NCBI GenBank assembly: GCA_016195665.1
Contig: JACPZD010000001.1
Coordinates: 1-64,000, forward strand
DNA length: 64,000 bases
From: Gammaproteobacteria bacterium
GTDB taxonomy: Bacteria; Pseudomonadota; Gammaproteobacteria; SURF-13
Direction of reading: 5' to 3'
A program made the translations under genes and the position numbers. The notes beneath the pieces were generated by a model, which saw only the letters and a list, made by a program, of their open reading frames with translations, ran no database searches and was not told the origin of the DNA. Position 1 is the first letter of the stretch. Every line of letters begins with the position of its first letter. Of the stretch, positions 3,629-53,777 are shown piece after piece.

Positions 3629-3650
3629 GGCCGAATGAATTCGGCCCTAC
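3629..3650 (-). repeat. REP unit (family B)
   Basis: The minus strand reads GTAGG followed by the palindrome GCCGAATTCATTCGGC. It is one of about eleven units in this window, the densest group flanking the RAYT gene at 47362. It lies between the M23 gene and anmK and ends 12 bases before the anmK start codon. Confidence 0.85.
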
Positions 3651-3662
3651 AGTCTTCAATGC

Positions 3663-4784
3663 ATGTCTAGCCTTTTTATCGGGCTGATGTCCGGCACCAG
3701 CATGGACGCGGCGGATGCCGCGCTGGTGGATTTCAGCGCCGGCGAACCCAAGCTCATCGCCACCCACCGCACTCCGCTCACAGCGGAGCTGCGCGCCGCC
3801 CTGCTCGCGCTGTGCATCCCCGGCCCGAACGAGATCGAGCGCATGGCGGAACTCGATGCGCGGCTGGGCGAACTCTTTGCCGAGGCCGCGCTTGCGCTGT
3901 TAAAAAAATCCGGCGTTAACGCCACTGAGGTACTGGCCATCGGCAGCCACGGCCAGACCGTCCGTCATCAACCCACCGGCCCCTATCCGTTCAGTCTGCA
4001 GATCGGCAATCCCGCATTGATCGCACAACGCACCGGCATCACCACCATCGCCGATTTCCGCCGCGCGGACATCGCGGCGGGCGGCCAAGGCGCGCCGCTG
4101 GCGCCCGCGTTTCACAACGCGGTGTTGCGCTCCTCCGGGCATGATCGCGTCATCGTCAACATCGGCGGCATGGCCAACATCACTATCCTTCCCAAGGACG
4201 CAAAGCAACCCGTCACGGGTTTTGATACCGGGCCGGGCAACGTGTTGCTCGATGCGTGGGCCGAACGCCACCTCGGAAAATGCATGGACGAAGACGGCCG
4301 TTTTGCGGCGACTGGCAAGATGCACGAGGGATTACTTGCCGGCCTTTTGAGCGACAGCTATTTTGCACTCGCCCCGCCCAAGAGCACGGGGCGCGAGCAT
4401 TTCAATAACGCGTGGCTCGATGCCGCGCTGAAAAGTTACAGCAAGGTCTCAGCACAAGACGTGCAAGCGACACTGTGTGAACTGACCGCCGCCTCAATTG
4501 CTGTCGCCATTCAAAAACATGCTCCCGCAACTAAAGAAGTGTTGATCTGCGGCGGCGGCACGCATAACGTGCATTTGATGCAGCGCTTACGCGCGCGCTT
4601 AAGCCGGTGTTCAGTCGAATCTATTGAGAAATACGACATCAGCCCGGACTGGGTCGAGGCGATGGCCTTCGCCTGGCTGGCGAAGCAAACGCTGGAAGGA
4701 AAACCGGGGAATCTGCCGAGCGTCACCGGCGCGAGGCGTGCGGTAGTGTTAGGCGCGATTTACTCAAGCAAGATAGAAGTGTAG
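3663..4784 (+). CDS. anmK: Anhydro-N-acetylmuramic acid kinase
   Basis: Phosphorylates 1,6-anhydro-MurNAc to MurNAc-6-phosphate during peptidoglycan recycling; cytoplasmic. 373 aa, full family length. The N-terminus has the phosphate-binding GLMSGTSMD (residues 7-15), followed by GSHGQT, the TGFDTGPGN motif and CGGGTHN near the C-terminus. No clear Shine-Dalgarno sequence is visible before ATG 3663 because a REP palindrome ends 12 bases upstream. The TAG stop lies inside the GTAG head of a second REP-like repeat. Confidence 0.95.
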   Translation: MSSLFIGLMSGTSMDAADAALVDFSAGEPKLIATHRTPLTAELRAALLALCIPGPNEIERMAELDARLGELFAEAALALLKKSGVNATEVLAIGSHGQTVRHQPTGPYPFSLQIGNPALIAQRTGITTIADFRRADIAAGGQGAPLAPAFHNAVLRSSGHDRVIVNIGGMANITILPKDAKQPVTGFDTGPGNVLLDAWAERHLGKCMDEDGRFAATGKMHEGLLAGLLSDSYFALAPPKSTGREHFNNAWLDAALKSYSKVSAQDVQATLCELTAASIAVAIQKHAPATKEVLICGGGTHNVHLMQRLRARLSRCSVESIEKYDISPDWVEAMAFAWLAKQTLEGKPGNLPSVTGARRAVVLGAIYSSKIEV

Positions 4785-4812
4785 GGTGGGTTAGCGAAGC
4801 GTAGCCCACCGG
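4781..4812 (+). repeat. REP-like repeat with GTAG head (family F)
   Basis: GTAGGGTGGG, a short loop, then CCCACC: a GTAG tetranucleotide head and a GGTGGG/CCCACC hairpin. The anmK stop codon TAG (4782-4784) is part of the head. Only one copy is seen in this window. Confidence 0.6.
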
Positions 4813-38961: not shown

Positions 38962-41445
38962 ATGGCAGTAAAACCCCCTATCCGCTCATTCAAGTACGAC
39001 ACGCTGGACATGGACGTCGAGTCCATAAAGCGTTCGCTCGCCAACCGGCTGGAATACTCCGCCGGCAAGGACCTCTACACCGCGACCCAGCGTGACTGGT
39101 TCAACGTGCTGGCCTATGCGGTGCGCGACCGCCTCATCGAACGCTGGATGGCGACCATGCGCACCTACTATGGCAAGGACGCCAAGCGCGTGTATTACCT
39201 GTCTCTGGAATTTCTCACCGGCCGCATGCTGGTCAACAGTCTGCTCAACCTGGGGATACTCGAAGAGTGTGAGCAGGCCCTGCACGATGTCGGCCTTAAC
39301 CTGCACGACATCATTGATCTCGAACCGGAGCCCGCGCTCGGCAACGGCGGCCTCGGCCGTCTCGCCGCCTGCTTTCTCGATTCCATGGCGACGCTGGGTT
39401 TGCCGGGTTACGGCTACGGCATCCGTTATGAATACGGCATGTTCACCCAGCGCATCGAGAACGGCCAGCAGGTGGAGCACCCGGACAACTGGCTGCGTTA
39501 CGGCAACCCCTGGGAGTTCGCCCGGCCGGAGATTCTCTATCCGGTCAACTTTTACGGACGGGTGATCGAATACGCCGACGACCACGGCCGCCTGCACCAC
39601 CACTGGGTGGACGCCGAAGAGGTGCTGGCGATGGCCTACGACATGCCGGTGCCGGGCTATGGCGTCAACACCGTGAATAACCTACGCCTGTGGGCCAGCA
39701 AGGCTTCGCGCGACTTCGACCTCAAGTATTTCAACGACGGCAACTACATCAAGGCGGTCGAGGACAAAAACGCCTCGGAGATGCTCTCCAAGGTCCTCTA
39801 TCCGGACGACACCACCTCGATGGGCCGCGAGCTGCGCCTCAAACAGGAATACTTTTTTGTATCCGCCGCATTGCAGGACATCGTATCGCGCTTCCACAAG
39901 ACCCACGAGTCCATTGAAGATTTACCGGACCATGTAGCCATTCAGCTCAACGACACGCACCCCGCCATCGCCATTCCCGAATTGATGCGGCTGTTGATGG
40001 ACAAGCACCACCTGGAGTGGAAACCCGCCTGGGACATCACGCAGCGCGTTTTCTCTTACACCAACCACACCCTGCTGCCGGAGGCGATGGAAAGCTGGCC
40101 GGTGCGCTTGATCGGAGCGGTGCTGCCGCGCCACCTGCAGATCATCTACGAGATCAACCAGCGCTTCATGAAGGACGTCGTACACCAATATCCCGGCGAC
40201 TTCGATCTCATGCGGCGCATGTCCATCATTGATGAAGACAACGGCAGGCGCGTGCGCATGGCGCATCTCGCCATCGTCGGCAGCCACAAGGTCAACGGCG
40301 TGGCGGCCTTGCACACGCATCTGCTCAAGACCACGACCTTCGCCGATTTCGAGCGCTTTTTCCCCGGGCGCATCGTGAACAAGACCAACGGCATCACCCC
40401 GCGCCTGTGGCTTAATCAGGCCAATCGCGGGCTGGCGAGCCTGATTTCATCGCGCATCGGCAGCGGCTGGATCACCCGGCTTGATGAGCTGAAAAAACTG
40501 CAGCCGCTGGCGGAGGATGAGGACTTTAAAAATCAATTTCTGGCGGTAAAACGCACCAACAAACTGCATCTCATCGAGATCGTCAAGCATTACATGGGCA
40601 TTAATCTCAACGTGGACTCGCTGTTCGACGTGCAGGTCAAACGCATCCATGAATATAAACGCCAGTTGCTCAACGTCCTGCATGTGGTGACGCTTTACAA
40701 CCGCATCCGCAGCGGCGCCCACCCCGACGCCGTGCCGCGTACGGTTATGTTCGGCGGCAAGGCGGCGCCCGCCTATTTGACGGCCAAGCTCATTATCAAA
40801 CTTATCAACGACGTGGCCGACGTCATCAACAACGACCCCACCGTGGAAGGCCGGCTCAAGGTGGTGTTCATCCCCAACTACAATGTCTCCACCGCGATGG
40901 ACATCTTTCCCGCCGCGGAACTCTCACAGCAGATCTCCACGGCGGGCACCGAGGCCTCCGGCACCGGCAACATGAAATTCGCCCTCAACGGAGCGATCAT
41001 CCTCGGCACCCTGGACGGCGCCAACGTGGAGATCCGCGAAGAGGTCGGGGAAAACAACATCTTTATCTTCGGCCACACCGCCGATGAAGTGAGAACAATC
41101 CGTTCCGAGGGTTACCGTCCGCGCGATTACTACGAAGCCAATGAAGAATTACGGCAGGTGCTGGATATGATCGGCTCGGGCTTTTTCTCGCCCGACCACG
41201 CCGATCTGTATAAGCCCATTATTGATAACCTGCTGCAGTACGATCACTATTTACTGCTGGCCGATTACGCCTCTTATATCGCCTGTCAGGGACGGGTGGA
41301 TGCACTCTATCGGGATCAAGCGGAGTGGACGCGGCGGGCGATTCTCAATGTCGCGGGGATGGGAAAATTTTCCAGCGACCGCACCATCCGCGAATACGCC
41401 GAGGAGATCTGGGATGTGCAGCCGGTGGAAGTGAAGATAGAATAA
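38962..41445 (+). CDS. glgP: Glycogen/starch/alpha-glucan phosphorylase
   Basis: Releases glucose 1-phosphate from alpha-1,4-glucans. 827 aa from ATG 38962 (MAVKPPIRSF); an in-frame ATG 41 codons upstream has no homology after it. LGNGGLGRLAACFLDS, GYGIRYEYGMF and the PLP-binding EASGTGNMKFALNGA are present. It stands alone without other glycogen genes in the window. A REP pair follows and probably terminates it. Confidence 0.97.
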   Translation: MAVKPPIRSFKYDTLDMDVESIKRSLANRLEYSAGKDLYTATQRDWFNVLAYAVRDRLIERWMATMRTYYGKDAKRVYYLSLEFLTGRMLVNSLLNLGILEECEQALHDVGLNLHDIIDLEPEPALGNGGLGRLAACFLDSMATLGLPGYGYGIRYEYGMFTQRIENGQQVEHPDNWLRYGNPWEFARPEILYPVNFYGRVIEYADDHGRLHHHWVDAEEVLAMAYDMPVPGYGVNTVNNLRLWASKASRDFDLKYFNDGNYIKAVEDKNASEMLSKVLYPDDTTSMGRELRLKQEYFFVSAALQDIVSRFHKTHESIEDLPDHVAIQLNDTHPAIAIPELMRLLMDKHHLEWKPAWDITQRVFSYTNHTLLPEAMESWPVRLIGAVLPRHLQIIYEINQRFMKDVVHQYPGDFDLMRRMSIIDEDNGRRVRMAHLAIVGSHKVNGVAALHTHLLKTTTFADFERFFPGRIVNKTNGITPRLWLNQANRGLASLISSRIGSGWITRLDELKKLQPLAEDEDFKNQFLAVKRTNKLHLIEIVKHYMGINLNVDSLFDVQVKRIHEYKRQLLNVLHVVTLYNRIRSGAHPDAVPRTVMFGGKAAPAYLTAKLIIKLINDVADVINNDPTVEGRLKVVFIPNYNVSTAMDIFPAAELSQQISTAGTEASGTGNMKFALNGAIILGTLDGANVEIREEVGENNIFIFGHTADEVRTIRSEGYRPRDYYEANEELRQVLDMIGSGFFSPDHADLYKPIIDNLLQYDHYLLLADYASYIACQGRVDALYRDQAEWTRRAILNVAGMGKFSSDRTIREYAEEIWDVQPVEVKIE

Positions 41446-41451
41446 AAAATG

Positions 41452-41497
41452 CAGGGCCGAATTCATTCGGCCTGCGTGCGAATGAATTCGCACCTAC
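41452..41497. repeat. REP pair (family B), two units in opposite orientation
   Basis: CAGGGCCGAATTCATTCGG (41452-) then GTGCGAATGAATTCGCAC plus CTAC (41476-41497). It lies between the convergent glgP and rho genes. Confidence 0.85.
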
Positions 41498-41508
41498 AGC
41501 GGATTTTT

Positions 41509-42765
41509 TTAACGCTTCATCGAATCGAAAAATTCGGCATTGGTCTTGGTCGCCTTCAGCCGTTCCAGCAGAAACTCCATCGCCGCGAGCTCGTCCATCG
41601 GATGCAGCAGCTTGCGGATGATCCACATCTTCTGCAACTCATCGGGTTTGGTAAGCAACTCCTCGCGGCGCGTGCCGGAGCGGTTGATGTTGATGGCGGG
41701 GTAGATACGTTTCTCGGCGATCTTGCGGTCGAGATGAACCTCCATATTGCCGGTGCCCTTGAATTCTTCATAGATCACGTCGTCCATGCGTGAACCGGTG
41801 TCAATCAGCGCGGTGGCGATGATGGTGAGCGAGCCGCCCTCCTCGATGTTGCGCGCCGCGCCGAAGAAGCGTTTGGGCCGCTGCAGGGCGTTGGCGTCCA
41901 CACCGCCGGTCAACACCTTGCCGGAGGCCGGCACCACGGTATTGTAGGCGCGCGCCAGGCGGGTGACGGAATCGAGCAGAATGACAACGTCACGCTTGTG
42001 CTCCACCAGCCGCTTGGCCTTTTCGATCACCATCTCGGCGACCTGCACGTGACGGGTGGCGGGTTCATCGAAGGTGCTGGATACGACCTCGGCACGTACC
42101 GAACGCTGCATCTCGGTTACCTCTTCCGGCCGCTCGTCTATCAGCAGTACAATCAAATAGCACTCTGGATGGCTCGCGGCGATGGACTGGGCGATGTTTT
42201 GCAGCATCATGGTCTTGCCCGCCTTGGGGGGGGACACTACCAGTCCGCGCTGGCCTTTGCCGATGGGGGCGATCAGATCGATAACGCGCGCGGTGATATC
42301 CTCGGTGCTGCCGTTACCCTGCTCCAGGGTGAGGCGTTCATTGGCGAACAACGGGGTGAGATTTTCGAACAGTACCTTGTTCTTGGCGTTTTCCGGCGCC
42401 TCGAAATTGATCTCGCTCACCTTGAGCAGGGCGAAGTAGCGCTCCCCTTCCTTCGGCGGACGTATCTTGCCGGACACGGTGTCGCCGGTGCGCAGGTTGA
42501 AGCGCCGCACCTGGCTCGGGGAGACGTAGATGTCATCGGGTCCGGCGAGATAGGAGCTGTCGGCGGAGCGCAGGAAACCAAAACCGTCTTGCAGAATTTC
42601 CAGTACCCCATCGCCGAAAATATCCTCGCCCTTTTGGGCGTGGGCCTTGAGGACGGCGAAGATGACATCTTGCTTGCGCGAGCGGGCCATGCCCTCGACG
42701 CCCATGGACAGTGCGAGGTCTATGAGGTCGGCGGCGCTTTTTTGTTTGAGTTCAGTCAGGTTCAT
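41509..42765 (-). CDS. rho: Transcription termination factor Rho
   Basis: Hexameric RNA helicase that ends transcription. 418 aa from ATG 42765 ([10 protein letters not shown]). N-terminal Rho-N helices, cold-shock RNA-binding domain at about 50-115 with GFGFLRS, Walker [10 protein letters not shown] (about 178), and Q/R-loop [16 protein letters not shown]. It follows trxA, as in many Gammaproteobacteria. Confidence 0.97.
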
Positions 42766-44931: not shown

Positions 44932-45474
44932 ATGGCCTGCATCATTTCCCCCGACGGTAAAGAAACGCGCGAGCTTCCCGCCATACAAGCACGCCTGTCT
45001 GACATCGGCATCACCCTGAGAAGCTGGCCGGCGCCCGCCGACGCACGCGCGCAGTCCCTGTTGAACAAGCCCGCGCTCGATGACGCCGAAAAGGAAGAGC
45101 TGCTCGCCGCCGTGGATCATCGCTTTCAGGAACTGAAACGGGAAGCCGGCTATACCACGCGTGACATGATTGTGCTGCACGAGGACATTCCGGGTCTCGC
45201 CGAGATGCTCGGCAAGTTCGACAAGGTGCATTATCACACCGATGATGAGGTGCGCTACATCCTGGCAGGCAAGGGTTATTTCGGATTCGTGGACAGCGAC
45301 GGCGGACAATTCATGCTGGAGGTCAGCGCCGGCGACTACATCGCCGTCCCGGCCAACACCGAACACTGGTTCACCCTGGGCGATTCACCGCGCATCAAGG
45401 CAGTACGCTACTTCATAGACACCAGCGGCTGGACACCGGTGTATACGCAAAGACCCGTAGCAAGTTTCGAGTAG
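44932..45474 (+). CDS. mtnD: Acireductone dioxygenase
   Basis: Last oxidative step of methionine salvage: opens the acireductone to the keto-acid precursor of methionine. 180 aa cupin with metal ligands H100, H102, E106 (VHYHTDDEV) and H145 (NTEHWF). First gene of a three-gene set with the RuBisCO-like protein and mtnB. Stop TAG is immediately followed by a REP unit. Confidence 0.94.
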   Translation: MACIISPDGKETRELPAIQARLSDIGITLRSWPAPADARAQSLLNKPALDDAEKEELLAAVDHRFQELKREAGYTTRDMIVLHEDIPGLAEMLGKFDKVHYHTDDEVRYILAGKGYFGFVDSDGGQFMLEVSAGDYIAVPANTEHWFTLGDSPRIKAVRYFIDTSGWTPVYTQRPVASFE

Positions 45475-45495
45475 CAGGGCCGAATTCATTCGGCC
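45475..45495 (+). repeat. REP unit (family B)
   Basis: CAGGGCCGAATTCATTCGG-type unit in the 38-base gap between mtnD and the RuBisCO-like gene. It leaves no clear Shine-Dalgarno sequence for the latter. Confidence 0.8.
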
Positions 45496-45512: not shown

Positions 45513-46631
45513 ATGATCCAGGTCACCTACCGTTTCCCTGCCTCTGTGGACGCCGCCAAGCAGGCGCAGGTCATCGCCATCGGCCAGACCGTGGGGACAT
45601 GGGGTGCGTCATTCTCCCACCGTGAGCAACAACTGCACAGTCACCTCGCCGAAGTGGTCGAGGTCATCGCGCAGACCGACGGTTCATCGCTCGCGCGCAT
45701 CGCCTTCCCGGCCGCCAACACCGAAGGCGACATCGGCACCCTGCTCACCATGATCTTCGGCAAATACAGTTTGAGCGGCCCCGCGCGCGTCGTGCATGTA
45801 AAATTACCCAATGACTATGGCACACGCCCGAAATTCGGCCTACAGGGTTTACGCAAGCGCACTCAAATCTTTGACCGCCCGCTGGTCATGGCCATCTTCA
45901 AACCCGCGTTAGGACTTACCGCAGGAGATCATGCCGCATTGCTGCGTGAAGTCGCATTGGCCGGTCTCGATCTCATCAAGGACGATGAAATATTGGGCAA
46001 CCTTCCCGGCTGTCCTACTCTCGAACGGGTGCGCGCATGCCGCGCCGTGATAGATGAGGTAAAACAAACCACCGGCCGTGAAATTCTTTACGCCGTCAAC
46101 GTCACCGGCCGCGCAGATCGGCTCAACGGGTTCGCCCGGCAACTCGTGCAGCAAGGCGCCAACGCCTTGCTGTTTAACGTCCTGAGTTACGGTTATTCCT
46201 CGCTGGAGGCGCTTGCTGCGGACCCCGAACTCAACGTGCCGATCTTCGCCCACCCCGCGCTGTCCGGCGCCCTGGGCGGACCTAGCGACGGCAGCGGCGA
46301 TTACGGTATAGACTACAGCGTCACGCTGGGCACGCTGATGCGCCACGCCGGCGCCGATGCAGTATTGTATCCCGCGCATTACGGTTCTCTGCCCTTCAGC
46401 GCTGCCGCCGAATTCCGTATCCGCGATATTTTACGCAGCGAAGCTGGCCGTCCTGCCCTGATGCCCGTGCCCTCGGCGGGTGTCAACGCGAACGTCGTGC
46501 CGCGCATCCTGCAAGACTACGGCAACGACGTGGTGCTCAACGCCGGTTCGGCCATCTTCGATCATCCGCAAGGTCCGGCGGAGGGGGTGCGTGCGATGTT
46601 CGCGGCCATGCACAGCGCAGGTTATGGCTAG
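45513..46631 (+). CDS. RuBisCO-like protein (form IV), probable methionine-salvage enolase
   Basis: 372 aa with the RuBisCO large-subunit fold. The carbamylated-Lys/metal motif is kept as LIKDDE (K156, D158, E159), and the first active-site Lys is in FKPALGL (K130), but the second Lys of KPK is Ala and the loop-6 Lys is absent (YPAHYGSLPF), so carboxylation is not expected. Between mtnD and mtnB it most likely enolises 2,3-diketo-5-methylthiopentyl 1-phosphate, like MtnW. MtnW normally works with the phosphatase MtnX, which is not in the window. Confidence 0.88.
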   Translation: MIQVTYRFPASVDAAKQAQVIAIGQTVGTWGASFSHREQQLHSHLAEVVEVIAQTDGSSLARIAFPAANTEGDIGTLLTMIFGKYSLSGPARVVHVKLPNDYGTRPKFGLQGLRKRTQIFDRPLVMAIFKPALGLTAGDHAALLREVALAGLDLIKDDEILGNLPGCPTLERVRACRAVIDEVKQTTGREILYAVNVTGRADRLNGFARQLVQQGANALLFNVLSYGYSSLEALAADPELNVPIFAHPALSGALGGPSDGSGDYGIDYSVTLGTLMRHAGADAVLYPAHYGSLPFSAAAEFRIRDILRSEAGRPALMPVPSAGVNANVVPRILQDYGNDVVLNAGSAIFDHPQGPAEGVRAMFAAMHSAGYG

Positions 46632-47247
46632 TACACTGGATGACCTCACCCCGCGCGCGGCGCTCATCGAGATCGCACGCGACTTTCATGCGCGCGGCTG
46701 GATGGCGGGCACCGCGGGCAACCTCAGCGCACGCGAAGACGATGGCGGCTTTTGGATCACCGCCAGCGGCAAACCCAAAGGCCGCTTGGAGGAAAACGAC
46801 TTCCTGTTAGTGAGTATCGCCGACGGCAAGGTCATCGAGCACAGCGGCAACGTCAAACCGTCCGCGGAGACCGCCATACACCGCAGCCTGTATCAGTGTT
46901 TTCCGGAGGCGCGCGTCTGTCTGCATGTCCACAGCGTGGACGCCTGTCTCGCTGCAGCGCGTTCTCCCGCCAATGCCGACTCATTGCCCTTGCCGCCCCT
47001 GGAAATGCTCAAGGGTCTGGGTGTTTGGGACGAGCATCCGCAGGTGAGTCTGCCGCTGTTTGAAAATTTTCTCGATGTCGGCAGGATCGCCGATGCGATA
47101 ACGGCGCGCTTCCAGCAATCGTCGCCGCAATTACCCGCCCTGATGGTGCGCGGCCACGGCATCACCGTGTGGGGCGGCAACTTGCAGGAGGCGTACAATA
47201 AGGTCGAGGTCATGGAATTCATCATGAGTTATCTGGCACGAGGTTAA
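46624..47247 (+). CDS. mtnB: Methylthioribulose-1-phosphate dehydratase
   Basis: 207 aa, class II aldolase/adducin fold with zinc. GTAGNLSAR (about 25-33), HVHS (about 101-104), PPLEMLKGLG and MVRGHGITVWG fit MtnB. The ATG at 46624 overlaps the end of the RuBisCO-like gene by 8 bases, so the two are co-translated. Followed by a REP cluster. Confidence 0.92.
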   Translation: MASTLDDLTPRAALIEIARDFHARGWMAGTAGNLSAREDDGGFWITASGKPKGRLEENDFLLVSIADGKVIEHSGNVKPSAETAIHRSLYQCFPEARVCLHVHSVDACLAAARSPANADSLPLPPLEMLKGLGVWDEHPQVSLPLFENFLDVGRIADAITARFQQSSPQLPALMVRGHGITVWGGNLQEAYNKVEVMEFIMSYLARG

Positions 47248-47249
47248 CC

Positions 47250-47351
47250 GTGCGAATGAATTCGCACCTACAACAGAATATATTCGCCCGCATTCTTGTA
47301 GGGCCGAATTCATTCGGCCGTTTTTGCGGGTGCGCCGAATTTATTCGGCGC
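47250..47351. repeat. REP cluster upstream of the RAYT gene (three units)
   Basis: GTGCGAATGAATTCGCAC unit (47250-47271), GTAGG/GCCGAATTCATTCGGC unit (47298-47319), and a third palindrome GCGCCGAATTTATTCGGCGC (47332-47351). The first two are in opposite orientation. Differences between units are matched on both stem arms (GCC/GGC against GTGC/GCAC). Confidence 0.85.
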
Positions 47352-47361
47352 GATCATAAAT

Positions 47362-47811
47362 ATGCCCTATGACGATTTGCGTAAAGGCCGGTTTTCCGGT
47401 GCGGGTTTGGCCTATTGCATCACCACCGTAACAATGGACCGCGCCAAGCTGTTCAGCGATATGCCATGCGGCAGACTCGTAGTAACTGAAATGCGACGCT
47501 TGCACGATGACGGTCTTCTGCAATCTCTTGCATGGGTGCTCATGCCAGACCATCTACATTGGCTATTTCAATTGGGAGATGTTGCAGACCTCTCAGCCGC
47601 CATGAAACTGTTTAAGGCACGCTCGGCCCGGTCACTAAACCACCATTTGCACAGAACGGCCTCGATTTGGCAGAAAGCGTATTATGATCATGCACTGCGC
47701 CGCGATGAAGACTTGCCTAAGCTTGCACGTTATATTATCGAGAACCCTTTACGCGCCGGTCTAGTTTCAGATATCGGTGAATATTCGCTTTGGGACACGG
47801 CTTGGCTGTAG
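47362..47811 (+). CDS. REP-associated tyrosine transposase (RAYT, Y1/HUH family)
   Basis: 149 aa single-strand DNA transposase of the TnpA-REP family. HUH motif HLH at 64-66 in MPDHLHWLF; candidate nucleophile Tyr at 107 or 108 in QKAYYDHALR; helix LARYIIENPLRAGLV typical of RAYTs. It begins 10 bases after a REP palindrome, and its TAG stop lies in the GTAG head of the next REP, so gene and REPs form one unit. It is the likely enzyme behind the REP units in this window. Confidence 0.92.
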   Translation: MPYDDLRKGRFSGAGLAYCITTVTMDRAKLFSDMPCGRLVVTEMRRLHDDGLLQSLAWVLMPDHLHWLFQLGDVADLSAAMKLFKARSARSLNHHLHRTASIWQKAYYDHALRRDEDLPKLARYIIENPLRAGLVSDIGEYSLWDTAWL

Positions 47812-47864
47812 GGCTGAATTCAGCCGGTCGTGTTTGGGAATAATGCGAATGAATTCGCACCTAC
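47808..47864. repeat. REP pair downstream of the RAYT gene
   Basis: GTAGGGCTGAATTCAGCC (47808-) and TGCGAATGAATTCGCACCTA (47844-47864), opposite orientations. The second unit ends 4 bases before the ispH start codon. Confidence 0.85.
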
Positions 47865-47868
47865 TATT

Positions 47869-48810
47869 ATGAACATCCTACTCGCCAACCCCAGAGGCTT
47901 CTGCGCCGGCGTCAGCCGCGCGATAGACATCGTCGAGCGCGCCCTTGATATATTCGGTGCGCCGATCTATGTGCGCCATGAAGTCGTGCACAACAAATTC
48001 GTGGTCGAGGGGCTGCGCGCGCGCGGCGCGGTTTTTGTGGATGAACTGCACGAGGTCCCCGACGACGGCCGAGTCATCTTCAGCGCCCACGGCATCTCGC
48101 GCGCGGTGCGTGAAGAGGCGACGCGGCGCGGCCTCAAGGTGTTCGACGCCACCTGCCCGCTGGTCACCAAGGTGCACATGGAGGTGCTGGGCCATTACCG
48201 CGAAGGGCGCGAATGTATTTTAATCGGCCACGCCGGCCATCCCGAAGTGGAAGGCACGCTCGGACAATACAACAAGCCCGAAGAATTGGGCCGGATGCAC
48301 CTGGTGGAGACGGTTGAGGATGTCGAAAAACTTCAGGTCAAAAACCCCGATGCGCTCGCCTTCGTCACCCAGACCACACTCTCCATGGACGACACCGCGC
48401 GGGTAATAGACGCCCTGCGTGCACGCTTCCCCACTATCCTCGGCCCCAAGAAAGACGACATCTGCTACGCCACCCAAAACCGCCAGGACGCGGTCAAGGA
48501 ACTCGCCCAACGCTGCGACGTGGTGCTGGTGGTCGGCTCGCCCAACAGCTCCAACTCCAACCGCCTCAAGGAACTCTCCGACAAACTCGGCACACCCGCC
48601 TATCTGATAGACAGCGCGGACGACATCCGCCGCGAGTGGTTAAATGGTAAAACGTCGGTAGGTGTAACGGCAGGCGCCTCGGCGCCGGAAGAACTGGTCG
48701 CCGAGGTCATCACCCGGCTTAAAGAATGGGGCGGCTCAACCGCCGAAGAGATGTCGGGCAGGCGCGAGAACGTGGTGTTTCCGTTGCCGAAGGAATTACA
48801 GAGTTACTGA
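47869..48810 (+). CDS. ispH: 4-hydroxy-3-methylbut-2-enyl diphosphate reductase
   Basis: Last step of the MEP isoprenoid pathway; 4Fe-4S enzyme, 313 aa. Cluster cysteines in PRGFCAGV (C12), DATCPLV and DICYAT; SPNSSNS binding motif is present. ATG 47869 is chosen by homology ([10 protein letters not shown]); no Shine-Dalgarno sequence is visible because a REP palindrome abuts the start. Confidence 0.96.
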
Positions 48811-53729: not shown

Positions 53730-53777
53730 GTGCGAATGAATTCGCACCTACACGTGTAGGGCCGAATTCATTCGGCC
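53730..53777. repeat. REP pair (family B)
   Basis: GTGCGAATGAATTCGCAC unit (53730-53751) and GTAGG/GCCGAATTCATTCGGC unit (53756-53777), opposite orientation, 4 bases apart. Likely transcription end of pilE. Confidence 0.85.

Follow-up and report, generated by a model that had tools for sequence, protein, structure and literature searches.

The window, which is the whole 64,000-nucleotide stretch of DNA that was analysed, carries a REPtron between mtnB and ispH, in which a single-copy REP-associated tyrosine transposase (RAYT) very probably spreads heterotypic REPINs. These are inverted pairs of two REP types, A and B, whose stems would be kept different for two-hairpin folding. Few bacterial transposases persist for long as single-copy genes, and RAYTs belong to these few.

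A RAYT gene framed by REPs between mtnB and ispH

Judged by its profile matches and structure alignment, the gene at 47362-47811 is a RAYT. Its product matched NCBIfam NF047646 (REP_Tyr_transpos) with 141 bits (cutoff 80) and Pfam Y1_Tnp as a second profile, and aligned to E. coli TnpAREP (PDB 4er8) with E 8e-8. In this alignment, W94, Q95, R104, Y115 and N119 of TnpAREP correspond to W103, Q104, R113, Y124 and N128, so that the catalytic Tyr124 is aligned to Y115; the HUH motif is HLH (residues 64-66). PMC6006769 describes what these TnpAREP residues do: the HUH motif and the Tyr form the catalytic part, and W, Q and R read GTAG. The sequence family, the HUH motif with the catalytic Tyr and GTAG-reading residues, and the abundant inverted REPs on its flanks are those of a RAYT family member. 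The neighbouring genes, mtnB (stop ends at 47247) and ispH (start at 47869), were both confirmed by NCBIfam. The nearest relatives of the RAYT share 57-63% identity with it (Methylobacter, Methylomonas, Acidiferrobacteraceae and others), and plasmids yielded distant matches only (at most 52% identity). The features of the locus and of the rest of the window are as follows.

47248..47868, no strand: whole REPtron interval, from the mtnB stop to the ispH start
47250..47271, minus strand: REP type B (GTAG-GTGCGAA-TTCA-TTCGCAC), directly past the mtnB stop
47298..47319, plus strand: REP type A (GTAG-GGCCGAA-TTCA-TTCGGCC)
47332..47351, plus strand: headless A-like hairpin (GCGCCGAA-TTTA-TTCGGCGC), ending 10 nt 5' of the RAYT start codon
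47362..47811, plus strand: RAYT gene, 149 aa, intact, assigned by profile and structure alignment
47808..47829, plus strand: damaged A unit (GTAGGGCTGAATTCAGCCGGTC), with the RAYT TAG stop codon in its GTAG head
47843..47864, minus strand: REP type B, separated from the ispH start codon by 4 nt
41451..41497, no strand: REPIN A(+)/B(-), heads-out, 3-nt spacer, between convergent glgP and rho
53730..53777, no strand: REP pair B(-)/A(+), heads-in, 4-nt spacer (CCTAC-ACGT-GTAGG)
3629..3650, minus strand: single REP type A
45474..45495, plus strand: single REP type A whose head is GCAG, placed where the ORF 44932-45474 has its stop codon

The order around the RAYT is thus B(-), A(+), headless A-like hairpin, RAYT, damaged A(+) and B(-). 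An earlier note on this DNA had read the locus as a REPtron with three REPs upstream and two downstream of the gene. The REPtron reading is borne out by the RAYT family match, the conserved TnpAREP residues and the framing by a genome-wide REP family. All five hairpins were found as well, but the third upstream one lacks a GTAG head, and mutations have altered the first one downstream. The further pairs and single units that the note had placed elsewhere in the window are real (41451-41497, 53730-53777, 3629-3650 on the minus strand and 45474-45495 on the plus strand). An Rfam search of the REPtron interval gave no match. The position of the TAG stop within a GTAG head was considered as a special feature and set aside: GTAG ends 22 of 89 RAYT homologues, an intact hairpin follows in only 5, and the overlap has already been published.

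Several other observations concern the REPs of the window. The A/B REPIN fills the gap between glgP and rho (41445-41509), with A6 on one side and T7 on the other, and may serve as a two-way terminator for these convergent genes. Five relatives of the same family carry different sequences between glgP and rho; as they hold other, unrelated intergenic sequence with no readable junction, no clean empty site for this REPIN was found among them. At 45513-46631, between the 44932 ORF and mtnB, lies a gene for a Rubisco-like protein, whose best match, DK-MTP-1-P enolase, scored below cutoff, and a lone A REP is found at its upstream edge; in relatives the ORF and mtnB are adjacent, without the Rubisco-like gene between them. 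At 4781-4810 there is a single GTAGGGTGGGTTAGCG-type hairpin that resembles enterobacterial REPs and has no second copy in the genome.

The A and B units form a genome-wide REP family

The repeat unit is 22 nt long: GTAG is followed by a hairpin with a 7-bp stem, whose two arms are joined by the loop TTCA or TTTA. Two stems occur, GGCCGAA in type A and GTGCGAA in type B, which differ at stem positions 2 and 3 with both arms changed (G-C to T-A and C-G to G-C). The repeat is not due to chance, because GTAGGNNCGAATTCATTCG has 58 exact matches in the 2.38-Mb genome and the pattern read backwards has none; with up to 3 mismatches, the count was 90, and 2 for the reversed-pattern control. After reading the stretches around the matches, about 87 units were retained (65 A and 22 B), and 60 of 86 lie outside crude ORFs, compared with 16% expected. 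By the definition in PMC6006769, a REP has a hairpin with 7 or more paired bases, preceded at a distance of 0-2 nt by a GTAG head, and occurs in many copies that are mostly intergenic; the A and B units have all these properties of the GTAG superfamily.

REPs occur as heterotypic inverted pairs

Close pairs (at most 60 nt apart) number 23 genome-wide. Twenty of these are inverted and 3 are tandem A/A, so that two inverted REPs form a recurrent unit, as in a REPIN or BIME. All but one of the inverted pairs are heterotypic A/B (19/20), compared with a mean of 10.2 after label shuffling (P about 5e-5, a value that overstates independence because the pairs are copies). Thirteen inverted pairs are heads-out, with spacers of 2-8 nt in 12 and of 13 nt in one, and 7 are heads-in, with spacers of mostly 2-4 nt (for example CCTAC-AT-GTAGG). 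The two types had been expected to occur mainly as convergent pairs; the pairing of unlike types stands, but both geometries exist and one third of the pairs are heads-in, leaving "mainly convergent" two-thirds right. Lone units comprise 38 A and 3 B, and one lone B (L162) adjoins a degraded A; type B therefore hardly exists unpaired with A.

Homotypic pairs are common around related RAYTs, where they make up 15 of 66 inverted pairs (the other 51 have different stems), and also in genome G043, so a two-stem design is no general requirement. Among the heads-out pairs around RAYT relatives, those with spacers below 13 nt were heterotypic in 10/10 cases, and 0/6 homotypic ones had such a short spacer (Fisher P 0.06, cases not independent).

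The same genome holds a second RAYT (C40:36602-37015, or L200:1503-1916; NF047646, 175 bits) with a REP of its own, GTAGGGTGGGCACG..GTGCCCAC. The 23 units of this REP are different from A and B, and occur mostly in homotypic heads-out pairs with a spacing of about 23 nt. With the two-stem design beside a homotypic, wider-spaced REPtron in one genome, the question of why heterodimers exist becomes directly testable. Seven further RAYT-like proteins or fragments match NF047646 (L178 and L203-L208), three of them above cutoff (L178, L205 and L207), and most have no clear GTAG hairpins nearby.

Stem differences and the folding of pairs

According to the earlier note, both arms of the stem change together wherever bases differ. 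This is true between the two types, at stem positions 2 and 3, and across species, but not within a type, where 26 of 27 deviating stem pairs are one-sided and only 1 is two-sided. Of the one-sided changes, 14 break pairing; such deviations look like decay. Among 27 distinct units of the genome, 13 two-sided cells were counted versus 3.6 in shuffles, all at the positions that separate A from B. Alignments showed compensatory pairs at 2/7 stem positions in the genome's own units and at 6/7 in RAYT-flanking REPs of other species; the latter units were chosen for pairing, so that only the diversity of pair types counts in this figure.

When folded with DNA parameters, each A/B heads-out pair yields two hairpins that stay apart, at a mean of -15.5 kcal/mol. 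Versions converted in silico to A/A or B/B form one long hairpin of -27.9 or -26.6 kcal/mol, which is about 12 kcal/mol more stable. On folding, the A/B pairs thus do not adopt the one long hairpin that characterizes an SBW25-type REPIN. The heterotypy of short-spacer pairs and the homotypic second REPtron fit the two-hairpin idea, without proving it.

How REPs would be cut and copied, and why there would be two stems, we infer as follows. The RAYT would recognise the GTAG head, 7-bp stem and TTCA loop in single-stranded DNA, and its HUH/Tyr centre would cut near REPs; of a TnpAREP, a cut close to a CT dinucleotide of the single-stranded REP is expected. Non-autonomous REP pairs (REPINs) could thereby spread through the chromosome, mostly into intergenic gaps; the mobile unit would be the heterotypic A/B inverted pair, and lone A units would mostly be remnants. 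The differing stems would favour two separate REP hairpins over one long perfect hairpin, and this fold may keep each GTAG-hairpin readable by the RAYT and avoid a deletion-prone long palindrome.

REPs vary with the RAYT across genomes

The distances between RAYTs and between their REPs are correlated (Mantel Spearman rho 0.41, 0/5000 permutations, 42 dereplicated loci with 22-nt REPs), and around the nearest relatives of the RAYT, most REPs have a stem that is identical or almost identical. Copy number also depended on the RAYT in the few genomes compared. Five genomes of the same family have only remote RAYT-like proteins or none, and carry 0, 3, 3, 4 and 5 copies of the unit, some with decayed GCAG or GTGG heads, compared with 81 by the same pattern in the window genome; the closest copy-poor genomes are draft assemblies, in which RAYT absence could be an assembly gap. 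Outside the family, a close RAYT was present in 8 of 50 genomes of the class, and 4 of these 8 carry the unit (1, 11, 32 and 36 copies). A close RAYT was present in each of the three outside-family genomes with at least 11 copies, and the unit was absent from all 42 outside-family genomes without one. The same tendency of copy number with RAYT has been described in E. coli (PMC8049555). The window genome, with its RAYT and about 87 REPs, and the sister genera, which lack a close RAYT and have 5 copies or fewer, offer a natural comparison.

History of the site and alternative explanations

In three genomes of the same family from two genera (G003, G004 and G005), the stop codon of mtnB and the start codon of ispH overlap within ATGA (AATGAAAGT), with no REP and no RAYT between. 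Because of this overlap, the REPtron at mtnB-ispH is probably a local gain; loss from the site in the other genera could also have occurred. Outside the family, the mtnB-ispH order was kept in 0/25 loci examined, so that gain and loss are not polarised. A REPIN of the window genome (G000, C36, L191) aligns end to end with one of G005 (C58, L216), with an unusual TTGA loop in common, and the REP family therefore predates the genus split. This alignment and the gene overlap together suggest that the RAYT unit reached its present site after the family had REPs, by relocation, REP-REP recombination or re-acquisition. In another genome (G001, L209), the mtnB-ispH junction holds an unrelated GC-rich repeat of ~80 bp (CCCTCTCCCTCTGGGGAGGG...).

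One account of this history is that the RAYT and its REPs are a mobile unit, which would have moved into the mtnB-ispH junction in the window lineage by RAYT action or by REP-REP recombination. The gene overlap in three genomes of two genera speaks for such a move, as does the orthologous REPIN, since REPs were then older than the split and the RAYT presumably resided elsewhere. On the other hand, neither a donor site nor an older RAYT copy was found, exact junctions are unreadable at about 75% identity, the 25 loci from other families provided no outgroup with mtnB-ispH adjacency, and horizontal regain of the RAYT, or loss in other genera, would serve as well. We regard such a move as rather unlikely. 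The broader notion that a whole REPtron, RAYT and REPs together, can move, based on its place inside an ancestrally overlapping gene pair and on a REP family older than the genus split, appears unlikely to a slightly greater degree.

The A/B rule might also reflect a founder effect, in which one ancestral A/B REPIN was copied without selection on the stem difference. The A and B sequences are nearly identical across all pairs, and the two types stay constant while spacers vary (2-8 nt in 12/13 heads-out pairs), both of which favour a founder. However, stems differ independently in heterotypic pairs around most related RAYTs (51/66 pairs), and heads-out pairs with spacers below 13 nt are all heterotypic, in the relatives (10/10; Fisher P 0.06) and here; we consider a founder effect possible but somewhat doubtful. 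Quite improbable is a reading of the REPs as host-maintained RNA or DNA elements, such as terminators or mRNA stabilisers, with the RAYT either uninvolved or domesticated for some other task. The clustering of units outside genes and at gene ends would agree with it, and so would the 41451 pair between convergent glgP and rho, with its A-run and T-run, but copy number tracks the presence of the RAYT, REPs and RAYTs vary together in sequence from species to species, and terminators would not need a kept GTAG head. The preferred explanation remains a RAYT that spreads heterotypic REPINs.

Comparison with known systems

The system is a GTAG-type REPtron, and heterodimers, REP-flanked RAYTs and the TAG-stop overlap have already been published. 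RAYTs flanked by inverted REPs were described by Nunvar et al. 2010 (PMC2817692), and REP hairpins were shown to be cleaved by Corneloup et al. 2021 (PMC8266576). Di Nocera et al. 2013 (PMC3733652) described, in the parts consulted, homodimers and heterodimers of GTAG-tagged REPs, the heterodimers as HH and TT, and TAG stops from GTAG heads, and proposed that heterodimers escape the clearance of long hairpins. The pairs here resemble the dimers of those parts in their heads-out and heads-in arrangements, different stems, GTAG-supplied TAG stops and intergenic placement, but have unusually short spacers (mostly 2-8 nt) and are, when inverted, nearly all heterotypic. The A/B REPs are not among the examples named in the same parts of that paper.

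The likeness to E. coli TnpAREP with its Y and Z REPs lies in an IS200-like HUH/Tyr1 protein with GTAG-reading residues, encoded by a single-copy gene, in inverted GTAG-hairpin REPs on its flanks, and in one set of REP types per RAYT. Unlike the E. coli REPs, the stems here are shorter, perfect 7-bp helices without the E. coli bulge; in further contrast to the E. coli system, there are two stem versions in the window genome, and the RAYT is apparently missing, at mtnB-ispH and elsewhere, in genomes of the same family. In P. fluorescens SBW25, as Bertels and Rainey are said to have reported in 2011, inverted REP pairs are the mobile unit, lone REPs are remnants and the system depends on a RAYT; the SBW25 REPINs are reportedly mostly homotypic and able to form one long hairpin. 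The inverted pair as a mobile unit, the lone remnants and the RAYT dependence would be shared with SBW25, whereas the pairs here are heterotypic and fold as two hairpins. To these systems, the present REPtron adds inverted pairs that are almost always heterotypic and very closely spaced, in a genome whose second REPtron is by contrast homotypic. It also adds a comparison within the family, where the mtnB-ispH site of other genomes is likely empty.
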